64,000 nt of DNA from Chaetoderma sp. LZ-2023a. Its lineage: Eukaryota; Mollusca; Caudofoveata; Chaetodermatida; Chaetodermatidae. Below the pieces are notes generated by a model. That model did not search any database. It worked only from the letters and a program-made list of their open reading frames with translations, and was not told the origin of the DNA. The stretch spans positions 83,495,647 through 83,559,646 of the forward strand of contig CM067366.1 in the NCBI GenBank assembly GCA_034401795.1, given 5' to 3'. Positions 26,901-64,000 of this stretch are shown in pieces. How positions within the stretch are numbered: position 1 is the first letter of the stretch; each line of letters opens with the position of its first letter. The position numbers and the translations under genes are program-made.

Positions 26901-27657
26901 GCCATTATTCCCCCCCCCCCCCCACTCACCCACACTTTAAGCAGTGGCAGCATTTTCCTGTGATGGAGGTCCGCGCGAGTCACTTGCCTCTCGCAAGGAT
27001 CAAGTGATGGCGGCCCGTGCGAGGCTACTACTACTCACCCATAAATACAGCATCAGAAGTAATGCCCGCACAAGGCACATAGCCTCTCGCCACAAGTAAA
27101 GGATATTTTCCTTTTTCTTTTTCAGCTTAGAGGTATAATAACTTATATTAAGTTAATTAGTGATCTCGTATGCGGGGGCCTCCTTTACGGGGATACCTCT
27201 GCGGACCTGCGAGTCTGTGTGGTACCTCCGGTGGTCCCACGTTTAAAAGTTCATCAGGCTGTCTCTATGTCTTGTATTTTCGGATGCTCATTATATCTAG
27301 CTACCTTGACGGTCTGTTTTAAGTAAATTAATTGTATATGCTTATTTAGTTTAGGTCACCATCAAATCTTGTAAGTCCATAGATCTCAAAATTGCTATGG
27401 ACAGGCATACCGGTGACACCAATTCATGGGATGAGACTGTTGTTTTTAATGTTCATGACGATGGTTGCATGGCCCCACCGGAATGATTGAGTTCCACCAG
27501 CCTTAGGAGCCGGTCTTTGTTACCCGTAGGGAAGTGTCGCACGGGATCCATATCCCCGAGACCAGGAGCTAACCAACGTCATCACTCGTCGTTCACATGC
27601 AGCGCAGTGAGCTGACAACAGATACCGGAACGGCCTGACGCTACCCTGTGAGCTATA
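23956..27657 (+). repeat. 5' LTR of the giant gypsy element
   Basis: 3,702 bp. Begins TGTTGAGCGGATCGACC and ends CGCTACCCTGTGAGCTATA. Promoter elements occur only about 0.6 kb in (see separate entry), so most of its length is R/U5 if that promoter is used. The last 250 bp contain a compact module (ACCGGTGACACC to the end) that recurs elsewhere in the window. Confidence 0.93.
24404..24570 (+). promoter_or_regulatory. LTR promoter: CRE, inverted CCAAT boxes, TATA
   Basis: TGACGTCA at 24,404-24,411, repeated ATTGG motifs (inverted CCAAT) at about 24,479-24,510, and TATAAA at 24,539-24,544. The same arrangement is kept in the 3' LTR (TGACGTCA 39,722-39,729, TATAAAAA 39,857-39,864), where the TATA box is stronger. 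Start of transcription would be near 24,570. Confidence 0.7.
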
Positions 27658-27659
27658 AG

Positions 27660-27682
27660 TGGTACCCGATGTGGGGCTCGAA
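27660..27682 (+). promoter_or_regulatory. tRNA primer-binding site
   Basis: It begins TGGTACCCGATG and ends GGGGCTCGAA, two bases after the LTR. Its complement ends in CCA, preceded by a 7-base acceptor strand, a T stem and a TTCGAGC T loop, exactly the layout of a tRNA 3' end. I could not assign the tRNA isotype from memory. Confidence 0.8.
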
Positions 27683-27738
27683 GAACAACAACAGTAACAC
27701 GCAGCGAACTCACGCCTACACCATCCAGTGAGCTCGGA

Positions 27739-29519
27739 ATGCTTTCTCCATTCAGCGACGATTGCCTCAATCAAGAGGTGGCGTCCTATGATGGACACTG
27801 CGCTCGCTTGCTCACCGACTATGCCAGGAATTCTAGCGATGCGGAATCACCAACACCGCAATATCAACTGTTCTCGTTCATCAGTGAGGGGACACTCTGG
27901 GATGCCTCACAAGCGGGAACAGAATTTCGTACCCTATCAGACGTCCGTGATAAGCCAACTCCATCAGGGCCGGATCGTGGACGATCTCGACAAATACCCA
28001 TTTATGGGCAAAACTATTATCCTTCCCATCACTATCGTTCACCCGTGTCATCACTGGATGATATATGGCAGGGTTATAATCCTTACGATCGACAACCTCC
28101 CACACAGCCCCGATTAAATGTACCATCTTATTTACAGGGGACAACACGACACCACCGGGAGGAGTCGGCACCACCATTTCAGTGGTACATCAGTCATGCC
28201 ACACATCATGACCGTCAGCCGATCGCACCACCACCATACGAGGAATTCTGCCTTCTCCACGCGAAGAACGTCCGCGTCATCTCCACAATGCGCCGCCTTC
28301 CATCCATAGACCTACGCCAGTTTATTAATCTGCCTCGGGACGAGCATCCTTGGATGTACCTATACGCGGTCGTACTCCTTTATACAGGCCTCTTCCTCCT
28401 CAGCACCCACACCACCACCACCATCACCCGCACATCGACCACCATCAGCATTCTCATCAGTCTCGCGAGTACCACCACCACCCAGATTTGCACCACTCAG
28501 TTCTTCCCTTGGTCCTGGCCAGGTCATTCTCCCTCCTGAATTTAGCAGAGAGTGACTGGGCCAACTACAAAATTCGATTTGAGATAATCAGCAGAACAAA
28601 CTGCTGGAATGATCAGCCAATGGGTGAATATCTCGCTGCGAAGCTTTCCGGAAATGCCCTTCACATTCTCGCGGACCTCAGGACTGATTACACCCCCACC
28701 TACACACAACTGGAATGAGCTCTGTCAGAACGGTTCGGCGACACCGCTCTTGGGGAAACCAGTCGTTGTCAACTCAAGAATCTCTGGCGATGCACTGGAG
28801 AGACCCTATCGGAGTTGGCTAGTCGCATCTAGAGACTAGTCACCCATGCGTATCCCAGTACAAACATTGAGGGCATGACACAGTTGCACCTTGACATGTT
28901 CATAGATGCCTTGAGCCCTGAACCCGCTCTAAAGGAAAAACTCTTTCTCGCTGACCATGGAAGCCTGGCACAATTAACAGCCACTGCGGTGCGCATCGAG
29001 AATTTCCTGGAGTGGGAGAAAACCAACTGCTGCCAACTTCATCCTATCAATGAGATAGACGGTGCGAATATCGCCACATCACCCGACAACCGCACCACAC
29101 CCACCATATCATCAGCAACAGAACCACCTGCACCACAACCAGCACCACACCAATCTAATCAGAATCACGGGCCTAGAGGAAAAGGGCGTGGCCAAGGCCA
29201 CAACAGAGCCCAAGGGCGTGGGAACCAGCACAATAATAACAACTACCGCGGCAACATGCATGGCAGGATAGATGAGATAAACAAACAAATCTCCGCGCTC
29301 ACTAATTTAGTAACAACACTCAGCACCAACCTCGCCACTACACACCCTAGAACAGCATCCACTACCAACCCCGCACCATCACCAAACACCTGTTACGGAT
29401 GCGGTCAGCCAGGACATTGGAGAGACGGTGCCCTAACCGACCTCCGTCTACAACATCCACCGCTGGCCGCAAAACACCACAATCTGACAAGCCATCAAAC
29501 TCCTAAGGACACCGATTGA
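27739..29519 (+). pseudogene. gag of the giant gypsy element, decayed
   Basis: Opens at the ATG 27,739 with a Pro/Gln/His-rich N-terminus. The reading changes frame near 28,340-28,400 to the capsid-like part (SDWANYKIRFEIISRTNCWN, MGEYLAAKLSGNALHILADL). It passes a TGA near 28,716 and a TAG near 28,830, then continues from 28,875 (LHLDMFIDALSPEPALKEKL) through a Gly/Arg/Asn-rich stretch to a zinc knuckle CYGCGQPGHWRD whose last Cys has moved out of frame. Typical metavirid gag order. It cannot make a full protein. Confidence 0.85.
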
Positions 29520-29795
29520 AGAGCCACCTCGGTGCCCATTCTTACAACCTGGCTCAGCTGTGGCCTCCGTGCAACAACGTCCGGTGGCCAACTATCAGCA
29601 ACCTGCATCAGCATTCTCACATACACCATTATGCATGGCTTCATATTTGTCAGTGCCTACGATGCCTCCCACATCAGGAGCACTGCCACCCCCCTCTTGC
29701 GGACAAGGTAATCCCACAATGTCCACTTTTAACAAACCTTCTTTCCTATGTAGAACAGCAGTGGTAGGTTGTAGCACCTCACTGAAACAACGTTT

Positions 29796-30242
29796 TTGCA
29801 AGCACCACGTCCCACCACCAAGACACTAGATTCTCGGTGTCCCTTGGTGGTATGCAACACACCTTCCTGCACAGCATCATCCCCCGCATCTACAGATAGC
29901 AACAGTATGGGAGACACCATCAATTCTGCATCATGGATCCACAAACGACGATGCTGCCGGCAATATGAACGTATTCCCAAGCGTCGTTGCTTCTTCTGTG
30001 TATCTACTAAGCATTTCATGATGCACTGTAGGAAGCGGCTCGCTCAAGTGGCTCTCATCCGTGATCGGGAAAATCCTATCCGTACCGCCATCTATACTAA
30101 CTCCGCATACACAGAAACTGCATCAAATCCACCACCATTGCTACCACCAGCTCCATCGACACCAAAGCACTCACAGCAGTGGAGACGACGGACTGGCCCT
30201 TTCCTCACTCAGCCATCTACAGCACTAAAAGAAGCTATCTAG
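29796..30242 (+). pseudogene. second CCHC knuckle region between gag and protease
   Basis: Open frame with an intact knuckle CFFCVSTKHFMMHC (C-x2-C-x4-H-x4-C, about 29,988-30,030) followed by Pro/Ser/Thr-rich linker. Lies between the gag knuckle and the protease, so either a second nucleocapsid finger or a displaced one. A TA microsatellite follows. Confidence 0.65.
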
Positions 30243-30248
30243 AAACAG

Positions 30249-30249
30249 A

Positions 30250-30310
<61 letters not shown>
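30249..30310. repeat. (TA)n microsatellite inside pol
   Basis: About 62 bp of TA, placed in the linker before the protease. It adds a run of alternating Tyr-Ile to the frame. Confidence 0.97.
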
Positions 30311-30314
<4 letters not shown>

Positions 30315-30339
30315 GTGATTCCGCTCCGACTCCTCTGTC

Positions 30340-30660
30340 ACAAACAGTATCATTGGAAACACTTCCGCAGGCACATCGGAAGGTTACATATAAGTGTGCT
30401 TGTCTGTTTAGCGGTATTTCCACCAGTGCCACTGACACTGGAGCTTCTATCACTGTTTTTAACAAACGCTTATATGAGAGCATCCCACCTCATAGGAAGC
30501 CACCCCTTAAGCCTACAAATACATATTTACAGACAGCCACGTGAGCTGATGTTCCCGTGGCTGGTGTAGTTAATCTTATTATTCAACTAGAGGCGATGCA
30601 ATTCATACAGCGAGTTGTCATTGCCTCTATTTAGAATGATGCCCTTCTTGGCTCTGATTT
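30340..30660 (+). pseudogene. gypsy aspartic protease
   Basis: The retropepsin motif is ATDTGASITVFNKRLYESI (DTGA codons at about 30,434-30,445). After a TGA near 30,544 the same domain continues (NDALLGSDFLSASEVVIH), matching the ALLGxDFL flap/C-terminal signature. In-frame stops break it. Confidence 0.8.
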
Positions 30661-30859
30661 CCTCAGTGCCAGCGAAGTCGTAATACACTGCATATAACAA
30701 GAAATCGACATACACGGCCGTCGGATTCCCCTTGGACTGGAATCATCATTATATGATACGTGTGCTGTAATACTATCAAGTACAGCCACAGGTGAGCCGG
30801 GACATAAACAAATCTTATGGGCCACCACACTTCAGTTAGGAAGCAACAGCCACATCGCC

Positions 30860-32520
30860 ATGCGGGAGCTCGACCTTGATTACATGATCGCCTCACAATG
30901 TGCAAGTCCCCATATGATCGTGGACACCACGAACAAAGAACACATACCATTTCGTGTGTTCAATGGCACCGCAGATCCCATAACTCTTGAACTGGGGGTA
31001 TGCTGTGGCAATTTGATGGATGTGATCTCTTTGGAAACACCCACACTTACCACCGTACACACGCAAATGACTGCTGATATACCTGAACACCTACATGATT
31101 TGTATTTACGTGCCACTGTAGGATTACAGTACTCTCAGAAACATCAAATACGGAAATTGCTTTACAAATATCGCAATAGTTTTTCCTCTGGAGACATGGA
31201 TCTCGGAGAAACACATCTTGTATGACACTCCATCGACATGGGCAACAATTGCCCCATACGACAACTGGTACAACGTCTTCCCATTCACAAAGAAGCGGAA
31301 GCCCACCAACAAGTAAATGACATGTTGCGGACTGGTATCATTGAACCATCAGCATCTCCATGGGCCAGCCCTATCGTACTAGTAGGCAAGAATGACGGAT
31401 CCTTGCGGTTTTGTGTTGACTACCACGGCCTTAATGATCTTAGCATTAAGGATGCATATCCACTCCCGCGAATAGATGAGGCCTTGGATTCTCTGTCCGG
31501 AGCCAAATGGTTTTGTACCCTTGACCTAGCTAGGAACTAGCTAGCATATACTGACAGGTGGCCATGGATGAAGCTAACCTGGAAACGACCGCATTCGTTT
31601 GTAGGGATGGTCTTTTCCAATTCCATAAGATGCCCTACGGCTTGTGCAATGCTCCCGGAACATTCGAACGCCTCATTGAGCAGGTATTAACCACCCTGTA
31701 ATCGGACATCTATCTGTGTTACATTGACAATGTAATAGTCTATGGCTCAACATTTGAGCAAACTCTAATTAACTTGGATACCATGCTGTCACGTTTCCGC
31801 ACAGCAAACTTAAAGCTCAACCCAAAGAAATGTCATCTCTTCAGACAGAGTGTTGAGTTCCAGGGATACGTCATAGCCGGTGATGGAGTGGCTACTAAGC
31901 CGTCAAACCCAAAGGCAGTAGCAGAGTGGCAAACACCCTCTTCGGTGACAGAAACTCGGGTTTCCTCGGGCTCTGTCAATACTATCGCCAATCTATCCGT
32001 CATTTCAACGAAATTGCTTCCCCTCTATATCAGATCACCGAAAAAGATCGACCATTCAAGTGGACGAGTGAGTGTGAAGGTTCCTTCAGGGCATTGAAGG
32101 AACTCTTGACGACTGCCCCGATTCTGGCCCATCCTAATCCAAACCTCAATTTCATCTTGGACACTGACGCATCAGCTTATGCTATTGGCGCGGTTCTATC
32201 TCAGGTCATGGAGGATGGAACGGAGTAGCTATTGGGTTATGGTTTCATGTACTCTTAATAAAACAGAGAAAAGATACGCGACCACAAAGCGAGAACTACT
32301 TGCGGCAGTCCATTTCGTCAAGTACTATAAACACTTTCTGTATGGTCGCCCATTTACACTCCATCCAGACCATGACTCACTATGCTGGCTCAGAAACCTT
32401 AAAAATCATGAGGGCCAGGTAGCGAGATGGCAGGAATCCCTGCAGGCCTATAACTTCAACGTTGTTCACTGTCCTGGCAAATTGCAGGGTAATGCCGATG
32501 CCCTCAGTAGAATTGGAGTG
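30860..32520 (+). pseudogene. gypsy reverse transcriptase and RNase H
   Basis: RT signatures in order: ASPWASPIVLVGKNDGSLRF, VDYHGLNDLSIKDAYPLPRI, AKWFCTLDLA, then in another frame VAMDEANLETTAF, FQFHKMPYGLCNAPGTFERL, LCYIDNVIVYGSTFEQ and LKLNPKKCHLFRQSVEF. RNase H follows: FILDTDASAYAIGAVLSQ, LNKTEKRYATTKRELLAAVH, NVVHCPGKLQGNADALSR. Stops at about 31,223, 31,538, 31,700 and 32,226 and several frameshifts disable it. The catalytic YxDD box reads YIDN: the second Asp codon is AAT at 31,729-31,731. Confidence 0.92.
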
Positions 32521-32559
32521 GAAGCAGAACACGAACAGGCCGAAACCGTGACACAATCT

Positions 32560-34072
32560 ACACAGCCATCTCCAGAGTCCCCTGAATTGCGGGGAACAGA
32601 GTGGAATCCTGAGAAAATCGCACACGAACAAGCACCAGATGCGCAAACACGAAATATATATGCGTGGATCCAGGAGGGGGTACGCCCTACCAAGGAATCG
32701 GTAACACCATTATCTACCACGGCTAAATATTATTACCAGCGGTTTGAAGAATGTCATCTTAACAAAAACGTTCTCTACATCAACAACCATCTGGTAATCC
32801 CGAAAAGTTATCGCAATATTATACTACAACAACTACATGATAACACTGGGCATCTGGCTGTTGAAAGGATCATTACCCGTATCAAACAGAGATTCCACTG
32901 GATCGGGATTCCCGATAGTGTAACGGCATGGGTTGCCAAATGTATCCCATGCCAAAGACGCACTGTTGGCCAGCACCATATCGCACCCTCACAAATTAAG
33001 ATAGTTGGTGCACCGTAGGAGCGAGTGACTATTAATGTGCTCAGACACTTGAATATGATGGATGACGGAACCAAGTACATCCTCTTTTTACAAGATTATT
33101 TCATGAAGTGGGTAGAAGCATTTGCTTTGCCGGACCAAGAGGCATCCACCATAGCGGAGGTCTTGGCAAGTAATGTATTCTGCCATTTCGGTATGCCCTT
33201 TGAACTACACTCCGATCAAGGAAGTAATTTTGAGAGCCGGCTCATATCAGAGCTCTGCAAATTGTTTCACATCATCAAAACAAGGACGACCCTATATCAC
33301 CCCCGAAGTGATGGGATGGTTGAGAGGTGCAATCGAACTCTCGCGTAGATGCTTACTAAAGAAACATGCCTTGATTGTAGAGATTGGGATCTACAACTCC
33401 CATATGTACTCACGGCTTACCGCACTTCAGTACATTCCACCACGGGTTATACCCCTGCTTGGTAAATGTTAGGCCGTGAATTAGCCTTACCCCTGGACCT
33501 GGCTATGCCTAGGATACCAGGAGCGAGAAATTCACCTTCTCTTTACGTAGAACTCTTGCGACAATGGATAGAACAAGCCCATGAGTTAGTAAGAGATACC
33601 TTATCCTCTGCACACCGACGGCAAAAGACATGGCATGACCGGAGAATGCATGGAAATCCTTATGAAGCAGGATGGATGGTATGGGTACACCATTCACGGC
33701 AGTCTGCAAACGTTCCAAGTAAACTGAGTTACCGGTGGAAAGGCCCCTATGTGGTAGTAGGTAAGACGTCGGACGTGACCTACCATATCCGTGCTTCGGA
33801 TGGCCTGACCTCAGTCATTCACTTCAATCGACTTAAACCATGTGTCAGTGACGACCCTGTACCAGAACTCGGGCAGGGCGTTTTCCGTGATGCAGGTACC
33901 CAGACAAAAATTTCTATGGAAACTAGTATTCCCACAGTTAGTGCAGAACAGTTCATCTTCTACCAAGCCAGAACACCGGTGAACAAGTGGCTGACGCTGA
34001 GGACGATGACAAGATATATACTCGCCCTTTCCGTCCTCAGCATGGGTCTACTCGATCTGGGAAGTCGTATTT
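32560..34072 (+). pseudogene. gypsy integrase and C-terminal tail
   Basis: HHCC finger: QLHDNTGHLAVERI, then CIPCQRR. DDE core: the expected first Asp is Asn (AAT at 33,034-33,036 in TIN of VTINVLRHLNM), second Asp in LHSDQGSNFES (GAT 33,213), Glu in DGMVERCNRTL (GAG about 33,322). The C-terminal beta-barrel-like part reads PSKLSYRWKGPYVVVGKTSD and VIHFNRLKPC. Stops near 33,016, 33,347 and 33,467. A probable frameshift near 33,960 leads into YTRPFRPQHGSTRSGKSYLK. Dead by both stops and an active-site change. Confidence 0.9.
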
Positions 34073-43827: not shown

Positions 43828-44640
43828 TTACAAATAGAAATTTTTTGAAGCACGCAACCTCTTAGCAACTGAATCTGAAACATAACCATTTTTGGTTGTT
43901 TCGTTACGCCAGCGGCCGTGTCGCTTAAAACACCTATCTAGCGTACCATTATTAGCTGCTGCCGTGGCTCCACCAACCCGCAGGGAATGCAACCCGTAAT
44001 CTTTACCCACGTCGGCAACTTCCCCAAGCCTAGCCACAATACATTTTCTTGTGCGAGTGTAACTAAGTTGTTTATTTTTGCCAATTAATGCGCATTTGAA
44101 ATTAGATCTATATATAGGTATGTTTACAAAACATTCACTATGAAAATCTATGCAAGCACTAGATGCGTATCTACAGAACATTTGATAAGGATAAACGATG
44201 GATTCTAACTTTGAAATTACTACGTGATTGTCTGACTGATACTGGTCCGTCTCACATTTAGCAATGCGTAGTATTAAATAATCATTATCTAGAGTTATGT
44301 CCTTACAGCGAAGAGAACTTAATTCGTCATATCCAAGGAAGTCACAGATAACTAACACATTGACGGATTGGCGATGCTTTTCGCAAAGGTTCTACAAATC
44401 ACTTGCCGGACCCCTACCACGCCGTGGCTGAGAAGCATTACGTTTGCAGCTTTCCAACATGTTTTGCCAAACGAATGACATGTTGCGTCTGAATTGCGGG
44501 TCAAATCACGAGCCCATTTTATCGAATAAATATAACGTAAAATAGTAGAAAATGAACAAGTTTGATCTAATAAATGAGTTCTAAATAATGCCACATGGAT
44601 TGATAAAGCGGGCAACGCCGGGCCGTTCTGACTTTTGAGC
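43828..44640 (-). pseudogene. DIRS-like tyrosine recombinase
   Basis: The N-terminal part (44,615 down: HLLDQTCSFSTILRYIYSIK) resembles the SAM-like DNA-binding domain. It is joined by a frameshift at about 44,355 to the catalytic domain: FLGYDELSSLRCKDI (first Arg), GLHSLRVGGATAAAN (His-x2-Arg), KRHGRWRNE (His/Trp), NGYVSD (Tyr). All visible catalytic residues are present in 43,828-44,358, which is open for 176 codons. Such recombinases replace integrase in DIRS/Ngaro retrotransposons and join circular cDNA to target. Its place after RT-RNase H fits DIRS order. Confidence 0.88.
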
Positions 44641-50344: not shown

Positions 50345-51123
50345 AATAATTCTTCTTCTTCTTCTTTTCGATCGCTGGCATCACACTTGGAGAGCCGTTC
50401 TCAAGATGAAATCTGTGGTTTTCTGCAGTTCTTCCAGATGCCCATACAGCTTTTCAGGAAAAGAGGTTGACAAAGGCCAGATCTCATCACTCAGCAGCTG
50501 ATACGTACTGCAACATTGAAGGATGTGCTCTGTGGTCTGTTCTGCTTCTCCACAAGGACAAGCGGGCGATGTCGTAAGGTGGAACCGCCCGTACATGTGT
50601 TGGTTTAGTCTGTTGAGTGACTTGATGATAGTCTTCATCTCTGTATGGGTAACCATGTTTTCTGTCTGATTCTCTTCTGCACCCACCTTTGCCATCTTGT
50701 CTGCTTCCTCATTTTCTTGGACTCCACAGTGTGAGGGGATCCACTGCAATGTTATCCGAAAGCATTTGATGGTTTGTAGTGCTTCTTCAAGTTGTGGCAG
50801 CTTACCTTTGGTGATAGCCTCAAGGACGGAGCGGGCATCAGATAAAAAGACAATCTGTGCAATAGGGTCTGCTGTTCTGCTGATGGTATTAGCTGCATGA
50901 ACCAGTGCTTCGACTTCAGTTCTGTACTTTGTGCAGTGTTTGCCTGTCGGTATTGCAGCTGACTCATGTTGTCCGTTTGGATACTGTATGTACAGTCCGG
51001 CACCTCCGCTCCTAATTGCATCTTTGGCTGGTCCATCTGTGTAGATCCTTATCCATGTCTCCTGAGGGTACATTTCTTCCAGCATGGCTAGGGTCAGGGC
51101 CTTCCTGCTCACATCACTGTGTT
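50345..51123 (-). pseudogene. 5'-truncated LINE: RNase H domain and (GAA)n tail
   Basis: 249 open codons (51,130-50,381) form a complete RNase HI domain: IRIYTDGPAKDAIRSGGAGL (Asp), KYRTEVEALVHAANTI (Glu), IVFLSDARSVLEAI (Asp), LQWIPSHCGVQENEEADKMA (His and Asp). A CCH-type cluster follows (CPCGEAEQTTEHILQCC). This is the 3' end of an I-clade-like LINE ORF2, and the element ends in GAAGAAGAAGAAG, a LINE-type tail. The RT is missing by 5' truncation. The break lies at about 51,120, and the ATG at 51,130 is an accident of the junction. Confidence 0.85.
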
Positions 51124-51379
51124 CAGACATACTGGTGACACAACATCTTGGGACGAGACAGTTGTATTTAATGTTCGCGACGATGATCGCACTGCCCCAC
51201 CGGAGCGATTGAGTTCCACCGGCCTTAGGAGCCGGATTTTGTTACACGCAGGGCAGTCTCATACAAGGTCTGTCACCCCGAGACCGGATGCTAACCAGCG
51301 TCATCATTCGTCGTGCACTTGCGGCGAGGCGAGTCGACATGATACACCAGAATGGCCCGACGCTACCCTGTGAACTACA
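51124..51379 (+). repeat. copy of the terminal module of the giant LTR
   Basis: From ACTGGTGACACAACATCTTG to the end CGCTACCCTGTGAACTACA it follows the last 250 bp of the 3.7-kb LTRs (TGGGAYGAGAC, GAGTTCCACCGGCCTTAGGA, ACCCCGAGACCGG). It starts exactly where the LINE fragment ends and stops exactly at the LTR end. Confidence 0.85.
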
Positions 51380-56431: not shown

Positions 56432-56479
56432 GACTCCAAATATAATAAATTCGTTACGTATGTGTAAAAACTCTATTAA

Positions 56480-57965
56480 ATATTGTCAATCTAACTGGCT
56501 CCCCATTAGGTGAAGCAGAGCAGTCACTGCTCAATTTTGGTCTTACATTTGTCCCAACACCAAAACCTAAAACAGGTTTGGATGCTCTTTTAGATAATGG
56601 CTGTATGGAAACATCTGAATTTAGTCACCGTATTAAGTTAGGAGACTTCTTTCGTAACTCTAATAGTAACATTCTACCATTCATTGAAAAAACAGGCTGG
56701 GCACCAAGCGTAAAACTCCTGGACCCAGCGATTGGTGAAAGCATAGAACTCTTTTCAGAGCGTGTTAAAAATTCTGCATTCCCTAATGATCAACCAAATG
56801 TACCCTATGAGGAACGCCAGGCCTTAATTGAATTGTCTAAAAGCAGCGAAATTGTCATCAAACCTGCAGATAAAGGGTCTGCAACTGTAATAATGCTTAA
56901 AGATAACTATAAACGTGAAGCACAACGACAACTTAGTAACCCAAAGCATTACCAGAAACTAAGCAAACCACTTTGGCAAAATAATTGCAGCAAATTTAAT
57001 GAAATTCTTCAAAAATTGCTCGATAGCAAGAAGATCACCGAAAAGCAACATAAGTATCTCTTTGCTAAGCTTGAGTCAAAACCACGGACTTTCTATCTTT
57101 TGCCAAAAATTCATAAACCCATAGATTCGTGGTTGGACCCAATGTCACCGCCCGGGCGACCTATAATCTCTGATTGTGGCTCAGAATCATACAGAATCAG
57201 TGAATACATCGATTACCATCTACAGCCAATAGCAAATAGACACCCCAGCTTCTTGAAAAACACAGAAGACTTCTTATCACAGGTCTCTGAGACCTGGATA
57301 CCTCCAAATTCATTCTTGGTCACGCTTGACATCGATGCTATGTATACAAACATTGACATCGAGAAGGGTATAAATTCTATCCGTAAAGCATTCGTGAACT
57401 ACCCAGACAGCAACAGGCCAGACAGAGAAGTAATAGCTCTATTAGAGCTGAGTCTGAAAGGCAATGATTTTGAATTCGATGGTGAAATTTACCAACAAAT
57501 TTGTGGCTGCGCGATGGGCAAGCGCTTTAGCCCATGTTTTGCCAATATTTACGTAGCAGAGTGGGAGGAGGAAGCGTTAGAAAAGTGTCCAAAACAGCCC
57601 CTCATTTATCGCAGATAGCTTGATGACATTTTCATGATTTGGCAACACACAAAGGCAGAGTTTGATGAATTTTTCGAAATTCTGAACAATCACGATCCGA
57701 ATATCAAATTAAAAGCAACCATTGACGAGATGTCTGTAGATTTCCTGGATGTAACTGTATATAAAGGTCTAAAGTATGAAACAACTGGCTACTTAGACTA
57801 CAAAGTGTATTTCAAACCAACCGATTCGCTTCAGCTATTGCACAAAAAATCTTTCCATCCACCGCATACTTTTAAAGGAATAGTAAAATCACAAATAATC
57901 CGTTTTCACAGGAATTCGAGTGATAGGAAAAATTTTGAAGAAGCGTGCTCTACCCTATTCAAAGC
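56480..57965 (+). pseudogene. Penelope-like RT, truncated copy
   Basis: Starts within ATATTGTCAATCTAACTGGC and reads EQSLLNFGLTFVPTPK, then RT: IVIKPADKGSATVIMLKDNY, TFYLLPKIHKPIDSWLDP, PPGRPIISDCGSESYRISEY, LVTLDIDAMYTNIDI, CGCAMGKRFSPCFANIYVAE. At the catalytic box Tyr is replaced by TAG (57,616-57,618) before LDDIFMIWQH. It stops abruptly at ATTCAAAGC (57,965), before the endonuclease. About 97% identical in residues to the minus-strand copy over the first 346 codons by eye count. Confidence 0.93.
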
Positions 57966-58400
57966 ACACCCATGGAAGGAAGGGGATTGGGGATGATTGA
58001 TGGGCAGGATCCATCCATCCATCCACCCACCCATACATCAAACCATCCATCCATTCATCCATCCATTCATCCATCCATGGAAGGGAGGGAAGGAGGGATG
58101 GGAAAGATCCATCCATCCATCCCGATGTGGAGATGGAATGAGGGATGGGAAGGAAGGAAGAATAGAGTGGGCATGGCTGGATAGAGGGGGAGGACCATCC
58201 ATCCACCCATCCACCCACACGCACGCTCTCACACACACACGCACACACACATACACACACGTACACGCGCACGCATGCACGTACCCACATTTACACACGC
58301 ACGCATGTACGCACGTACACACATGTACACACGTAGGCACATGTATACACGCACGCACGCATGTACGCACGCACACACCATTCACATTACACCCCCCCCC
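57966..58400. repeat. (ATCC)n / GGAA-rich and (CA)n / ACGC low-complexity block
   Basis: ATCCATCCATCC runs, CCATCCATGGAAGG palindromic joints, then CA and ACGC-type repeats and a C-run at 58,391. The first part resembles the block at the right edge of the window. Confidence 0.93.
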
Positions 58401-58995
58401 CCGCCCCACCCCCATGGATGGATGAGAGGCCGGATGATGGATGGGTAGGAGAGAAGGATAGAGCGGGGATCGGCTGGAGAAGGTGCAGGAGTGGGAGTTC
58501 GAGATGGACAGACGGGCAGTGGGACGGCAGAGTAGCGGGAGGGATGGGCAAATGGACTGACGGACAAGTGGACCATGTAACAGCCAGACCAGTGAATGCA
58601 TGGGTGGATTGACAGGAGCTGATGGATGGTTAGGCGGGTGGACCAGTGAATGAGTGGAGAAGCAGGAGAGTGAATCCGCGAATGATTGTAGAATTTGGTA
58701 TATAAGTCTCTCCACTGAAAGACCGACAGACTGCCTGACGGTGTCGACGGATATATAAGTTATGTTTTACAAGGCAGCAAAATAACAGAACTGGCACTCG
58801 CAAGTATGTAGTCAATATTGTCAACGCACTGGCTCAGAATCCTCAATAATTGAAAAAATTCAAAAATTTAAGATATTTTGGTTTATCCTACTGCCTGAGA
58901 TTTGTCATTTTGTTTGAGGAAAGCCATATGGCATTAATGTTAACCCTTTACTGGTTAAATTTGTTCAGTAAAATCCAAATATGCGCTTATTTATT
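58401..58995. other. no gene seen
   Basis: Purine-rich degenerate repeats until about 58,650, then AT-rich unassigned sequence. Confidence 0.5.
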
Positions 58996-58997
58996 TA

Positions 58998-59130
58998 ATG
59001 TACATTTGCAGGCACAGACAAGGTCATTCCCGAGAATACACCACTGGAACGACTGTCTCGGTTCCCGAGCCAGTCATTACAGTGGTAAATTTTCAAAAAT
59101 ACTCCAATCCCCGCCGGCAAATGGACATTG
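58998..59130. repeat. foldback repeat family A, copy 4
   Basis: AATGTACATTTGCAGGC arm, centre GACTGTCTCGGTTCCCGAGC followed by CAGTCATTACAGTGG, and inverse arm GCCGGCAAATGGACATTG. Confidence 0.85.
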
Positions 59131-59299
59131 CCCAAGATCACTAAATTGACCGTTTTTGGCTGACCATCATGCAAGGGTTAATGTTGGATGATTGAGATGG
59201 ATATTATGGATAGCTATTTGAGTTTTGCTTTTACCAAGATGTCACGTAGATTCGGATTTTTCTTGAACGCAATTACTGGTCGCTTGTTAAAGGGTTGTT

Positions 59300-61495
59300 T
59301 CAGTTTCTCCTGTAGGTTTGGGAAATTTCAACATTTTTCCGATTATAGGTCAGAATGAATGGAATTTTGTCACGTTGATCAGATAAGCCTGGGTCCGAGT
59401 TTATTCCCCTTGGCCACTGTGTTTCGAGTTCTTTAATCCAAAACGATTCTCGAAGTTTTCTTTGTTTATCAGTTTCTTCTGCCGTATCTGAAAGGGGTGG
59501 CTGTTCAATCGGCATAATTTCAAAGTCACGAAGGACTAAATGGTCAGGAAGATTAAAATGTTCGGAAACATGTGTGTCTTCCTCTAGCCTAATATCTGAG
59601 AGGTGTCGAGTTGCCCGCCATCTTAATGGACATTTGGTTTCGCCGACATACTGTTTTTGGCACAATTTGCATGAAATTAGATAAATAACATTTTCAGAGT
59701 CACAATCTAGATTAGACTGAAGTTGGAACTTGCTTTTGTTCTGAAAGCTCGTGAAAGTATTCTGGTTTGGGAGAAATTCATCTAACTTGCACCTTTTCTT
59801 TCCGCATTTGCGAGATTCGCCTACACCTATAATAGGACGATTGTGAGAAATTTTGGTAGGCCGACGATTTGAGGCATTATCTGGAATGGATTCCAAGCCG
59901 TCTAATGTTTCAGATTTGATTTTGCGCAAGAATCGTGAGGAGTAACCTCGTGGTTTGAGGGCTTTGAATAGGGTAGAGCACGCTTCTTCAAAATTTTTTC
60001 TATCACTAGAATTCCTGTGAAAACGGATTATTTGTGATTTAACTATTCCTTTAAAAGTATGTGGTGGATGGAAAGATTTTTTGTGCAATAGCTGATGCGA
60101 ATCGGTTGGTTTGAAATACACTTTGTAGTCTAAGTAGCCAGTTGTTTCATACTTTAGACCTTTATATACAGTTACATCCAGGAAATCTACGGACATCTCG
60201 TCAATGGTTGCTTTTAATTTGATATTCGGATCGTGATTGTTCAGAATTTCGAAAAATTCATCAAACTCTGCCTTTGTGTGTTGCCAAATCATGAAAATGT
60301 CATCAAGGTACCTGCGATAAATGAGGGGATGTTTTGGACACTTTTCTAACGCTTCCTCCTCCCACTCTGCTACGTAAATATTGGCAAAACATGGGCTAAA
60401 GCGCTTGCCCATCGCACAGCCGCAAATTTGTTGGTAAATTTCGCCATCGAATTCAAAATCATTGCCTTTCAGACTCAGCTCTAATAGAGCTATTACTTCT
60501 CTGTCTGGCCTGTTGGTGTCTGGGTAGTTCACGAATGCTCTACGGATAGAATTTATACCCTTCTCGATGTCAATGTTTGTATACATAGCATCGATGTCAA
60601 GCGTGACCAAGAATGAATTTGGAGGTATCCAGGTCTCAGAGACCTGTGATAAGAAGTCTTCTGTGTTTTTCAAGAAGCTGGGGTGTCTATTTGCTATTGG
60701 CTGTAGATGGTAATCGATGTATTCACTGATTCTGTAGGATTCTGAGCCACAATCAGAGATTATAGGTCGCCCGGGCGGTGACATTGGGTCCAACCACGAA
60801 TCTATGGGTTTATGAATTTTTGGCAAAAGATAGAAAGTCCGTGGTTTTGACTCAAGTTTAGCAAAGAGATACTTATGTTGCTTTTCGGTGATCTTCTTGC
60901 TATCGAGAAATTTTTGAAGAATCTCATTAAATTTGCTGCAATTATTTTGCCAAAGTGGTTTGCTTAGTTTCTGGTAATGCTTTGGGTTACTAAGTTGTCG
61001 TTGTGCTTCACGTTTATAGTTATCTTTAAGCATTATTACAGTCGCTGACCCTTTATCTGCAGGTTTGATGACAATTTCGCTGTTTTTAGACAATTCAATT
61101 AAGGCCTGGCGTTCCTCATAGGGTAAATTTGGTTGATCATTAGGGAATGTAGAATTTTTAACACGTTCTGAAAAGAGTTCTATGCTTTCACCGATCGCTG
61201 GGTCCAGGATTTTTACGTTTGGTGCCCAGCCAGTTTTTTCAATGAATGGTGGAATGTTACTATTAGAGTTACGAAAGAAGTCTGCTAACTTAATACGGTG
61301 ACTAAATTCAGATGTTTCCATACAGCCATTATCTAAAAGAGCATCCAAACCTGTTTTAGGTTTTGGTGTTGGGACAAATGTAAGACCAAAATTGAGCAGT
61401 GACTGCTCTGCTTCACATAATGGGGAGCCAGTTAAATTGACAATATTACTGCCCAGTCCTGTTTCCGGGCGGATGTTACCCTGGCCCTTGTCTAG
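59300..61495 (-). CDS. Penelope-like RT with GIY-YIG endonuclease (ORF2, -1 frame)
   Basis: 731 codons open from the slippery site to TGA at 59,302-59,300. No ATG starts it: the frame enters from ORF1 (KLDKGQGNIRPETG, then EQSLLNFGLTFVPTPKPKTG). RT: IVIKPADKGSATVIMLKDNY, TFYLLPKIHKP, PPGRPIISDCGSESYRISEY, LVTLDIDAMYTNI, CGCAMGKRFSPCFANIYVAE, YRRYLDDIFMIWQ (YLDD codons 60,310-60,299), SVDFLDVTVYK. Linker with CGKKRCKLDEF. Endonuclease: ENVIYLISCKLCQKQYVGET and CPLRWRATRHLSDI, then HVSEHFNLPDH. The catalytic boxes are intact, so this copy may be active or was until recently. Penelope proteins copy RNA and cut target DNA with the GIY-YIG nuclease. Confidence 0.95.
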   Translation of the reverse strand, partial: LDKGQGNIRPETGLGSNIVNLTGSPLCEAEQSLLNFGLTFVPTPKPKTGLDALLDNGCMETSEFSHRIKLADFFRNSNSNIPPFIEKTGWAPNVKILDPAIGESIELFSERVKNSTFPNDQPNLPYEERQALIELSKNSEIVIKPADKGSATVIMLKDNYKREAQRQLSNPKHYQKLSKPLWQNNCSKFNEILQKFLDSKKITEKQHKYLFAKLESKPRTFYLLPKIHKPIDSWLDPMSPPGRPIISDCGSESYRISEYIDYHLQPIANRHPSFLKNTEDFLSQVSETWIPPNSFLVTLDIDAMYTNIDIEKGINSIRRAFVNYPDTNRPDREVIALLELSLKGNDFEFDGEIYQQICGCAMGKRFSPCFANIYVAEWEEEALEKCPKHPLIYRRYLDDIFMIWQHTKAEFDEFFEILNNHDPNIKLKATIDEMSVDFLDVTVYKGLKYETTGYLDYKVYFKPTDSHQLLHKKSFHPPHTFKGIVKSQIIRFHRNSSDRKNFEEACSTLFKALKPRGYSSRFLRKIKSETLDGLESIPDNASNRRPTKISHNRPIIGVGESRKCGKKRCKLDEFLPNQNTFTSFQNKSKFQLQSNLDCDSENVIYLISCKLCQKQYVGETKCPLRWRATRHLSDIRLEEDTHVSEHFNLPDHLVLRDFEIMPIEQPPLSDTAEETDKQRKLRESFWIKELETQWPRGINSDPGLSDQRDKIPFILTYNRKNVEISQTYRRN

Positions 61496-62958
61496 TTTAA
61501 ATTTAGGAATTTAAGCCAGGCAGAATACATCGAGTTAGCTGTCTTCTCAGTCCAATGAATGTTATCCTTAACAACATTAAATTCGGAGAGTCTAAGTGCA
61601 GGAATGACAGTCACAGATTTTGATGATTCAGCCGTCGAATTGATGGACTGAATCGCCAACTTCTGCTGAGCTGTCAACCGACTTGAATAGTTAAGTTTTG
61701 CGAAGTAAATCGCAGTCTTTGGGAATTTGGACTTAATCGCACTGAGAAGCAGCATTAATCTATGTTTTGAACTAGAGATGGGTTCATTCATATCATTAAT
61801 GCCAATGTTAATCACTATTTTCTCTGGTTTAAATGATCCACTGTACTTTTGAATTAGTCCTCTAGCATGACACAATTTAGCTCCTGGGTAGCAGGCAACT
61901 TGCGTTTCAGGGTGGGGCTCAACATTAATGCGACTCAGGTTCGAAGCTCCAAAGATGAGTACTTTGTTCGTGAGAACAGGTAGTCGCCAGTCAATTTTGT
62001 TTTCGATTTCATGACGAAATTTCCAAAAAATGATTCTCTCCAACATGGTGGGTTGTTGGGGTCTATTTGCAAATTTAATAGGACGCACCTCCGGTGCATT
62101 ACTTGGACCTGAAGTTGGAGAGAAGCTGGGCTGTGGCAGTTTCCCTGTTGGGGATGGGGTCTTGAGACCCGATGGTTGACTGCTCTTGGGGGATTTCTGA
62201 GAAGCGCCAGTCCGTGGACCAGATTTGCTACCATTAACCCTTTCCCTCTGTGGCAAGGGCGGATATTCGTTTGGGTCATTTAGATTGCCTAGTGGAGAGT
62301 CAGGTAGTGGGATTAATGATGCTTCAAATAGCATATCTCTAGGGCCAGAATCTAATGGTAGCAATGGAGAGATTTTATTGTCTACTCGTTTTGTGACTGG
62401 CGGCGAAGTTTCAGGTGATCTGAGGCGTTTTTTCATTTGTGATTGTGGGGCCACAGTTGGTATCATGACCAGAGGCGTGGCTTGTGCGAGATTTTGAATT
62501 GGTTGCTGAGATGGATCTATCGGTCGCACAAAATCGTAAAAAGAACTAATCGCATTAATGTCGAGCTTTCTATTATAATTGTTTTTTGCCCAGCGTATAG
62601 CATTGGATTTAGCAGGACCTAGGTCTAAATGTGGCATTGCCTGTGTGAGGACTACTTCAGTTCTAATACTACCAAGTTGTTCATTATAGTGATTTAACAT
62701 GGCCTTAATGGTAGATTTTGCCCACTCAAAATTCACATTCCAGATGGCAAAGTAGATGTCATCATTTGGTATAGCTGGCTTACAAAATCCATTCAGCTCT
62801 TCCACCTTCCTGCTAAGCCCATCAGGGAGAGTTTCGGCATCTAAATGCCTACGTAGCGTAGCAATATGGTGGAAGCACTGAATTATTTGGTAATACAGCT
62901 TTACCAGGCGCGCATGCGCAGATGAACCCTTTACCATCTCCATTCTTCCTACGACCAT
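61492..62958 (-). CDS. ORF1 with C-terminal SGNH hydrolase domain
   Basis: The open frame starts after a TGA at 63,012. The first ATG, in good context (AGAATGG), is at 62,958, giving 488 aa. N-terminal about 130 residues are helical-looking (LVKLYYQIIQCFHHIATLRR, VNFEWAKSTIKAMLNHYNEQ). Then a Pro/Ser-rich linker with basic patches (residues about 150-310). The C-terminal 150 residues show the SGNH blocks: VLIFGASNLSRI (Ser339), CYPGAKLC (Gly359), VINIGINDMNEP (G-x-N-D, 386-389), KDNIHWTE (Asp465, His468). SGNH esterases occur in ORF1 of CR1/L2-type LINEs and in some rotifer terminons. Its role in a PLE is unknown; lipid or protein deacylation or RNA packaging are guesses. Confidence 0.85.
   Translation of the reverse strand: MVVGRMEMVKGSSAHARLVKLYYQIIQCFHHIATLRRHLDAETLPDGLSRKVEELNGFCKPAIPNDDIYFAIWNVNFEWAKSTIKAMLNHYNEQLGSIRTEVVLTQAMPHLDLGPAKSNAIRWAKNNYNRKLDINAISSFYDFVRPIDPSQQPIQNLAQATPLVMIPTVAPQSQMKKRLRSPETSPPVTKRVDNKISPLLPLDSGPRDMLFEASLIPLPDSPLGNLNDPNEYPPLPQRERVNGSKSGPRTGASQKSPKSSQPSGLKTPSPTGKLPQPSFSPTSGPSNAPEVRPIKFANRPQQPTMLERIIFWKFRHEIENKIDWRLPVLTNKVLIFGASNLSRINVEPHPETQVACYPGAKLCHARGLIQKYSGSFKPEKIVINIGINDMNEPISSSKHRLMLLLSAIKSKFPKTAIYFAKLNYSSRLTAQQKLAIQSINSTAESSKSVTVIPALRLSEFNVVKDNIHWTEKTANSMYSAWLKFLNLN
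61495..61501 (-). promoter_or_regulatory. -1 frameshift slippery heptamer T TTA AAC
   Basis: Minus strand codons at the ORF1 end are CTA AAT TTA AAC TAG. T TTA AAC (61,501-61,495) is a canonical X XXY YYZ heptamer in the correct phase, directly before the stop. An overlapping A AAT TTA also fits. Slipping back one base gives CTA GAC AAG GGC, which is the ORF2 frame and stays open. The next 50 bases are GC-rich with complementary GGGC/GCCC and GACAA/TTGTC pairs that could form a stem or pseudoknot. Confidence 0.8.
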
Positions 62959-63225
62959 TCTTCCTCGCAATAGCCATTCAGACAGACAATCGTTCAATCT
63001 AACTAGCAATCAGACAGGCAGTTGAGCAGGTAAGAGCGATTCGATCAGGCAAACTCAAATTCAAGCACACAAATTCATTCACATCAACTACAAATTGAAC
63101 CAATATATTACTTACACCTGAAAGACAAATTATAGAATTAACATGTAATATGCAAGGGTTAACAATACAACAATACAATACGCAATATTATAAGTTACTC
63201 ACAATAATTTTGGACACCGTCAATT

Positions 63226-63265
63226 GGCTAAATGCATTTCACATGGATGTGCTTCATCAGTAGCC
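63226..63265 (-). ncRNA. hammerhead-ribozyme-like motif
   Basis: 40 nt on the minus strand: GGCTA, CTGATGA, AGCACATCCATGT, GAAA, TGCATT, TAGCC. GGCTA pairs with TAGCC (stem I), CTGATGA and GAAA are the conserved core, and ATGCAT is a palindromic short stem III as in hammerheads that act as dimers. Stem II can form ACA/TGT, or CACA/TGTG only by using the G of GAAA, so this copy may be degenerate (perhaps a 2-base loss). Penelope-like elements are known to carry hammerheads, and the site is upstream of ORF1. Confidence 0.55.
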
Positions 63266-63266
63266 T

Positions 63267-63815
63267 GTATGACAAATCTGTCAGTCCTTCAGTATAGACA
63301 GCTTTATATACGTTTACTGAATTCCTCAATCTCCTTTGAAAAACTACTCTATGGTTTAATTTGAACAATTGAACTTTGTGCAAGGTTTGAATTTCCTTTG
63401 ATTCGGGTTTATCACAAACATCATTAATAAAGCCAATGATTAGTGGACTGGTTTCACTCCACACAGATTAGTGAAATTTTACTCTTCCGAATTGGATTGA
63501 TAAGTGAGTAGTGTTTCCTTCACGAGATCATGAACCGATCATTCAAAGGTGTTATAGGCTTTTGTTGGGACACTCAATTTTGCCTTTTGATTCCTTTTGA
63601 TCATTTGATGCCGAAAAAATTAATCAAGTTTGGAGGACATATTTTGTCATTTTATAGAATTTTGTTCACCACATCGGAAAGGCCACTGCAGTGTTAATAT
63701 TTAAACTTTGTTCATACATGTAGAAAGAAAGTAGTATTCAGCTCCCTTAATTTTATGTGAGTGAGTGGCTGGACGGACACACAGAGAGCCGGATGGCTGG
63801 CAAGGCAGATGGACA
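63267..63815. other. upstream flank of PLE, no gene seen
   Basis: May include 5' PLE sequence. A 78-codon minus-strand frame (63,464-63,228) overlaps the hammerhead and has no domain I know. Confidence 0.4.
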
Positions 63816-64000
63816 GATCCATCCATCCATCCATCCAACCATCCATCCATCCATCCAGACATCCAACCATCCATCCATCCCACGCCCCCATCCATCCATG
63901 GAAGGATGGGGAGGCGGCAAGGATGGGGAGGTGGGATAGGGACGGGCATAAAGGAAGGATAGAGCTTAGTCGGAGAGAGGGAGGAAGGATCCATCCATCC
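63816..64000. repeat. (ATCC)n / GGAT-rich block, runs off window
   Basis: ATCCATCCATCC runs, CCATCCATGGAAGGATGGGG joint, purine-rich stretch with GGAAGGATAGAGC, then ATCC again at the edge. Similar to 57,990-58,190. Confidence 0.93.

Follow-up and report, generated by a model that had tools for sequence, protein, structure and literature searches.

Penelope-like elements (PLEs) are distant relatives of telomerase, and to our knowledge the packaging and delivery of their RNA are largely unknown. The accessible part of PMC6431247 divides PLEs into those with a single open reading frame (ORF) for reverse transcriptase (RT) and endonuclease (EN), and those with two ORFs and no EN; EN-containing Penelope appears in the available portion of PMC3846280 as a single-ORF element with partial tandems. 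Esterases of the SGNH type, found as ORF1 proteins (ORF1ps) in Repbase, are stated in an excerpt of PMC3905857 to occur "even in Penelope-like elements". Here a PLE is described from a window of 64,000 nucleotides of Chaetoderma sp. LZ-2023a (GCA_034401795.1, CM067366.1:83,495,647-83,559,646; coordinates below are positions within this window), in which an ORF1 with a predicted SGNH hydrolase domain is followed, in the -1 frame, by an ORF2 with RT and GIY-YIG motifs. With a probability of about 0.83, we read it as an EN-bearing PLE with Gag-Pol-like expression, i.e., an SGNH ORF1p and, by a -1 slip at the heptamer U_UUA_AAC, an ORF1p-RT-EN fusion. The young family containing the window copy is called F1; other loci or families compared bear L numbers.

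With the EN-containing PLEs (Penelope, Poseidon, Neptune and relatives) the element shares an RT with PLE motifs, a C-terminal GIY-YIG domain, head-to-tail units and 5' truncation, but those elements have one ORF according to the accessible text of PMC6431247, whereas two are present here. In the ORF1ps of CR1/L2/RTEX long interspersed nuclear elements (LINEs), such as ZfL2-1 (structure 4c1b), an SGNH domain also lies downstream of a helical region and in a gag-like position; here, in contrast, its ORF overlaps that of a PLE RT/EN in the -1 frame, and the counterparts of H191 and S228 are replaced. The bdelloid Athena-type Terminons combine a PLE RT and an SGNH/GDSL ORF in one element as well (excerpts of PMC5408684 and PMC6431247), but they are EN-deficient (PMC6431247, same excerpt), giant and telomeric, with many accessory ORFs, and the excerpts describe no frameshift fusion. 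Retroviral Gag-Pol and coronavirus ORF1a/1b have the same class of heptamer at the end of the upstream ORF, and the switch proposed here would be Gag-Pol-like; no relationship is implied, and no significant pseudoknot or stem was found here. No description of a -1 frameshift in a PLE was found in the searched listings and passages of the open-access literature, with Repbase outside the scope. The view taken from the sequence alone, which knew of no EN-containing PLE making an SGNH-RT-EN polyprotein by frameshifting, is to be corrected in that an SGNH ORF1 had already been reported in PLEs. An SGNH ORF1 is known in outline; what is new, within the reach of these searches, is the conserved junction for frameshifting together with the targeting of (ACT)n by F1.

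Both ORFs of the window copy are open and overlap by 19 nucleotides. The overlap reads CTA AAT TTA AAC TAG, that is, U_UUA_AAC in the register of ORF1 and then immediately the stop; a second in-register heptamer, A_AAU_UUA, lies 3 nucleotides upstream. The junction CTAAATTTAAACTAG was identical in 22 of 22 same-family junctions found (window included; up to 2 substitutions were allowed), and a degenerate pattern of the sister-family junction gave 1,199 matches in the genome, many of them probably young copies, versus 0 for the reversed control; the junction is therefore not a product of chance. Among the matches listed for the degenerate pattern, the UAA stop after the heptamer is kept in all but one place. 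A full ORF1 (493-495 codons) with ORF1 and ORF2 in -1 phase is present in 13 of the 22 copies, and the remainder comprise the window copy and copies that are truncated, shifted, masked or cut off by the stretch; an ORF2 of 772 codons is present in 20, and the other two are a copy cut by the end of its stretch and the window copy. The junction is a real, family-wide feature, which recurs across the related families reached.

UUUAAAC is in register in five of the six families which were reached without using the heptamer (F1, L029, L032, L033 and L034; not L035). It stands directly before the stop in F1 (UAG) and in L029, L032 and L033 (UAA each), with differing bases in front of it; in L034 it starts 18 nucleotides before the last base of ORF1, compared with 6 in the other families. 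Nowhere else in the ORF1 stretches examined, which comprised only 90 codons for L033 and 24 for L042, does UUUAAAC occur in register. In L029, L032 and L038 the heptamer is also the exact point from which the frame of ORF2 is open. The loci L038 to L042 were picked by a pattern containing the heptamer and hence lend it no independent support. U_UUA_AAC is listed in the available part of PMC5009743 among the heptamers most prone to shifting with mammalian ribosomes.

Divergent families were obtained in several ways. An RT-motif pattern avoiding the codons of the young family gave 975 matches, and its reversal 19. Five stretches from this list were read: three (L029, L032, L033) contained an SGNH ORF1 and an ORF2 in -1 phase, decayed in places, one (L030) was the 3' half of ORF2 only, and in one (L031) nothing resembled a PLE. 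From prokaryote assemblies, an alignment of these ORF2s retrieved four contigs, L034-L037, which are taken to be eukaryotic contamination. Two of them, from an Epulopiscium single-cell assembly (L034, with two units about 5.44 kb apart) and an Enterovibrio metagenome-assembled genome (L035), carry an SGNH ORF1 and an RT/EN ORF2 in -1 phase; no match to ORF1 was found in L037 or in L036, the latter from a Bathymodiolus symbiont assembly. Scans of viral contigs found no relatives. In L035 (5,908 nucleotides) and L036 (3,501 nucleotides) a peptide near the beginning of the contig is repeated near its end, a pattern that a tandem or circular template would give. The locus L038 is intact; compared with F1, its ORF1 (49% identical) has diverged much faster than its ORF2 (84%). 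Downstream of L038, the beginning of ORF1 of yet another family (L048) was recognized by eye.

Ranked by decreasing identity to F1, L038, L029, L032, L034 and L035 come in this order both for the SGNH domain (0.60, 0.52, 0.40, 0.35, 0.27) and for the RT (0.83, 0.70, 0.63, 0.48, 0.42), which argues that ORF1 and ORF2 have travelled together. Constraint on both ORFs is seen between families: the ratio of nonsynonymous to synonymous divergence (dN/dS) of F1 versus L038 was 0.13 for SGNH, where dS (2.5) was close to saturation, and 0.10 and 0.07 for RT and EN, respectively, while for the N-terminal part of ORF1 dN was 0.39 with dS saturated; saturation left 11 of the 21 comparisons made with no ratio. 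In a 14-row RT tree (midpoint root; rows were the window and loci found here, with no named PLE clades and one long outlying row, L037), a branch (100/98) separates the seven SGNH elements from six elements lacking an ORF1 match. Five of these six come from the same genome and differ in their upstream region, which is separate or fused. This second PLE group (L043-L047) has its own upstream ORF, with no SGNH match; this ORF is fused in L044, lies in the -1 frame in L046, and in L043, L045 and L047 shares the frame but is set off by a stop.

The C-terminal domain of ORF1 is predicted to have the SGNH alpha/beta fold. Ser, Gly, Asn and Asp-x-x-His of the four SGNH blocks are invariant in an alignment of six families, and S356, G376, N405, D482 and H485 of the window copy agree with the complete set of blocks claimed in the sequence-only reading. 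Structure prediction, also proposed there, gave for this domain a model with a predicted local distance difference test (pLDDT) of 81.8, and fold searches with it returned SGNH folds. The Lipase_GDSL_2 profile scored window ORF1 below its curated cut-off of 32.9 (E 0.0015, 19.5 bits); the ORF1s of four relatives gave weak hits for L029 (19.0 bits) and L035 (18.0 bits) and none for L032 and L034. The best profile match in the PDB was 4c1b, the ORF1 esterase of the LINE ZfL2-1 (E 2.3e-8 and 9.9e-8), which was absent from the 50 matches listed in each of two fold searches. Residues aligned to its H191 and S228 are N/S/T and A/P/T, respectively, the latter by extension, since S228 lies one residue beyond the printed alignment. 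The conserved N-terminal region of ORF1 is predicted to be helical, as judged from a single-sequence model of the whole ORF1, which is poor (pLDDT 42.6) and the only place where the helices are seen. The N-terminal region of the second PLE group was considered as a homologue, but this is not claimed, because hhalign gave a probability of only 4.7% (E 0.0086).

The RT motifs of window ORF2, which we take to be of PLE type, align with those of the relatives. The profile RVT_1 scored window ORF2 at 27.5 bits (E 3e-6), below the cut-off of 29.6, which none of three relatives scanned (L032, L034, L035) passed; GIY-YIG scored it at 17.7 bits (E 0.0044), below the cut-off of 22.6, which was passed by L034 (28.2) and L035 (24.5), but not by L032 (19.0). 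Judged from these motifs, ORF2 encodes a PLE-type RT with a C-terminal GIY-YIG domain, as in an EN-containing PLE.

F1 is a young and abundant family. In the host genome assembly of 2.44 Gb, the ORF2 search gave 23,880 first-look candidates; the 61 that were scored, being the best of these and thus biased to intact copies, all had 99-100% identity and no stops, and in 60 the open frame ran to 772 or 784 codons, compared with 736 in the window copy. Exact matches to the 3' end of F1 numbered 1,119 in the genome, and those to the tandem junction 265. In intact copies ORF1 has 495 amino acids, with its ATG directly after a stop, and ORF2 has 772 codons. Compared with these, the window copy has small frame-disturbing differences near the ORF1 start and at the end of ORF2, which ends early with an altered tail; intact elements are therefore represented by other F1 copies, not by the window copy. 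The earlier judgement that the unit looks functional or recently functional agrees with the two open ORFs and the SGNH residues present, and is to be corrected in that these lesions leave the copy not fully intact.

The units are arranged in tandem or partial tandem (of the pseudo-long-terminal-repeat type): contig C2096 contains three head-to-tail units, 6,502 nucleotides from 3' end to 3' end, and 14 of 25 three-prime ends (found with the 22-base 3' end and up to 3 substitutions), including that of the window, join the next unit. The other 11 (L016, L017, L019-L023, L025, L027 and the C2096 and C3 arrays) join a (TAC)n, i.e., (ACT)n, run. (ACT)n was found also on the 5' side in three of four 5'-truncated copies with a readable flank (L020, L021, L027; not L016), and two further 5' breaks in the C3 array adjoin masked bases. 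The flanks on both sides point to insertion of F1 inside (ACT)n microsatellites, and its 3' end, GACTAC, matches the repeat.

The following scheme could account for the expression of such an element. Most ribosomes would produce ORF1p, consisting of a basic/helical N-terminal region and the SGNH esterase, and a -1 slip of a minority at U_UUA_AAC, immediately ahead of the stop of ORF1, would yield the ORF1p-RT-EN fusion. ORF1p might coat or localize the RNA of the element, perhaps at membranes, a role that has been proposed for LINE esterases; by way of the fusion, RT and EN may enter the same particle in a low, fixed proportion. (ACT)n microsatellites would be nicked by the GIY-YIG endonuclease, and the RNA could prime reverse transcription by pairing of its 3' end, ...GACUAC, with the cut repeat. 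It appears probable that an EN-containing PLE clade, present here and in two contigs from other, probably animal hosts, possesses such a Gag-Pol-like system, with esterase ORF1p and frameshifted polyprotein in one particle and, for F1, insertion into (ACT)n.

Alternatively, with no frameshift, ribosomes might start on ORF2 anew close to the ORF1 stop, by re-initiation or internally, as occurs in several LINEs. L035, with its SGNH ORF1 and ORF2 in -1 phase, lacks a canonical heptamer at the overlap and could use GGAUUUA or an AUG which overlaps the ORF1 stop, and an ORF2 AUG precedes the conserved N-terminal motif in three of six readable families (codon 14 with the motif at 42 in L038, 16 and 54 in L035, 41 and 52 in L033). 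These observations weigh against the frameshift, as do other canonical heptamers in register inside ORF1 (two in F1, away from the junction, two in L038, four in L029, one in L035), the RNAalifold stem 7 nucleotides past the heptamer, with 85.7% pairing versus 84.7% in shuffled sequences, and z-scores of single-sequence folds of -0.8 to +0.4 in seven families (-1.2 for a longer F1 stretch). Also to be counted here is the lack of visible constraint on ORF1 within F1 (ratio 1.02; 5 synonymous and 12 nonsynonymous changes in 13 copies, too few to tell), compared with a ratio of 0.36 for ORF2 (19 and 20 changes, 22 copies), 10 of 23 rows having been dropped for ORF1 and 1 of 23 for ORF2; the expected purifying selection on both ORFs thus holds between families and fails to appear for ORF1 within F1. 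Separate initiation has against it that the first ORF2 AUG comes only after the conserved motif in F1 (codon 64, motif 45), in keeping with the original description of an ORF2 lacking an ATG at its start, and likewise in L032 (158, 43) and L034 (392, 69), and that the heptamer stays exactly the same between diverging flanks; we regard separate initiation as quite improbable.

Explanations which deny the unity of the element fare worse. A frame change due to decay of an old single-ORF element, or to misassembly, would fit the small lesions elsewhere in the window copy and the decayed state of several divergent copies, but hardly a junction identical in all 22 same-family junctions found, the many sister-pattern matches and a phase that is shared by two contigs from other assemblies, so that it is highly improbable. 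That ORF1 came from an unrelated LINE inserted upstream may be suggested by SGNH ORF1s in CR1, L2 and RTEX LINEs (excerpts of PMC3905857 and PMC5408684) and by the LINE esterase as best PDB profile match; with the same layout in divergent families, the common order of divergence of the two ORFs and a single RT group, it is scarcely credible. The sequence-only reading had named RT copies without ORF1, or an unrelated LINE ORF1, as findings that would speak against it; the copies without ORF1 proved to be 5'-truncated (L030, and L041, which retains just the last 18 ORF1 residues) or members of another PLE group, and that reading was upheld. Finally, frameshifting may be real and the SGNH domain a non-catalytic, Oskar-like binding module instead of an esterase, which is unlikely in view of the Ser, Gly, Asn, Asp and His residues invariant in six families.

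If the frameshift reading is true, PLEs would be a further class of retroelements in which frameshifting sets how much structural protein is made relative to polymerase. With a conserved frameshift that fuses RT-EN to an esterase-type ORF1p, PLE expression gains a concrete and testable scheme, and an SGNH-bearing PLE links PLEs to the puzzle of the LINE esterase ORF1; F1 should be young and abundant enough for such tests. The (ACT)n preference provides a second testable handle, on target choice by a PLE endonuclease and the RNA 3' end.

Table 1. Features of the Penelope-like element and adjoining copies in the window.
Feature	Position	Strand	Basis or remark
Penelope-like unit	58808..64000	minus	self-alignment and C2096 array junctions; 3' end 58808, 5' end past 64000
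ORF1 (505 amino acids stop to stop)	61495..63009	minus	helical N-terminal region, Pro/Ser-rich linker, SGNH hydrolase domain (predicted)
Usual ORF1 start ATG of F1, out of frame in window copy	62975-62977	minus	comparison with intact copies
Conserved ORF1 N-terminal region, predicted helical	62515..62928	minus	alignment of five families
SGNH hydrolase domain (predicted), residues ~337-505	61495..62001	minus	alignments, model, fold matches, profile match to 4c1b
S356	61942-61944	minus	SGNH domain
G376	61882-61884	minus	SGNH domain
N405	61795-61797	minus	SGNH domain; worked out from same frame
D482	61564-61566	minus	SGNH domain
H485	61555-61557	minus	SGNH domain; worked out from same frame
Slippery heptamer U_UUA_AAC, ORF1 register	61495..61501	minus	junction reading
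ORF1 stop codon UAG	61492..61494	minus	directly 3' of heptamer
Possible stimulatory stem GGGC...GCCC, 7 nucleotides past heptamer	61467..61487	minus	not significant; pairing no better than shuffles
ORF2 (736 amino acids; stop 59300-59302)	59303..61510	minus	Penelope-type RT and C-terminal GIY-YIG endonuclease (from motifs)
YLDD motif in ORF2	60293-60310	minus	RT
QYVGET motif in ORF2	59636-59653	minus	GIY-YIG endonuclease
5' part of next tandem unit	57997..58807	minus	begins directly at 3' end of first unit; lower boundary approximate
Second, inverted partial RT copy	56479..57965	plus	97.8% identical; internal stop

Hammerhead ribozymes are known in PLEs. Ribozyme scans covered L010 and the window; no hammerhead was among the 73 matches of L010 at E up to 5, which were mostly microRNA models on simple repeats, and no RNA family reached its gathering score in the window. 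Minisatellites of the (CCATCC) type and others, at 57950-58450 and 63800-64000 of the window, belong to the long 5' region of the element and are common to other units. Further ORFs of the window, at 217-1523, 27652-34071, 43831-44391 and 50384-51241, appear by eye to be pieces of retroelement gag/pol, recombinase and RNase H.

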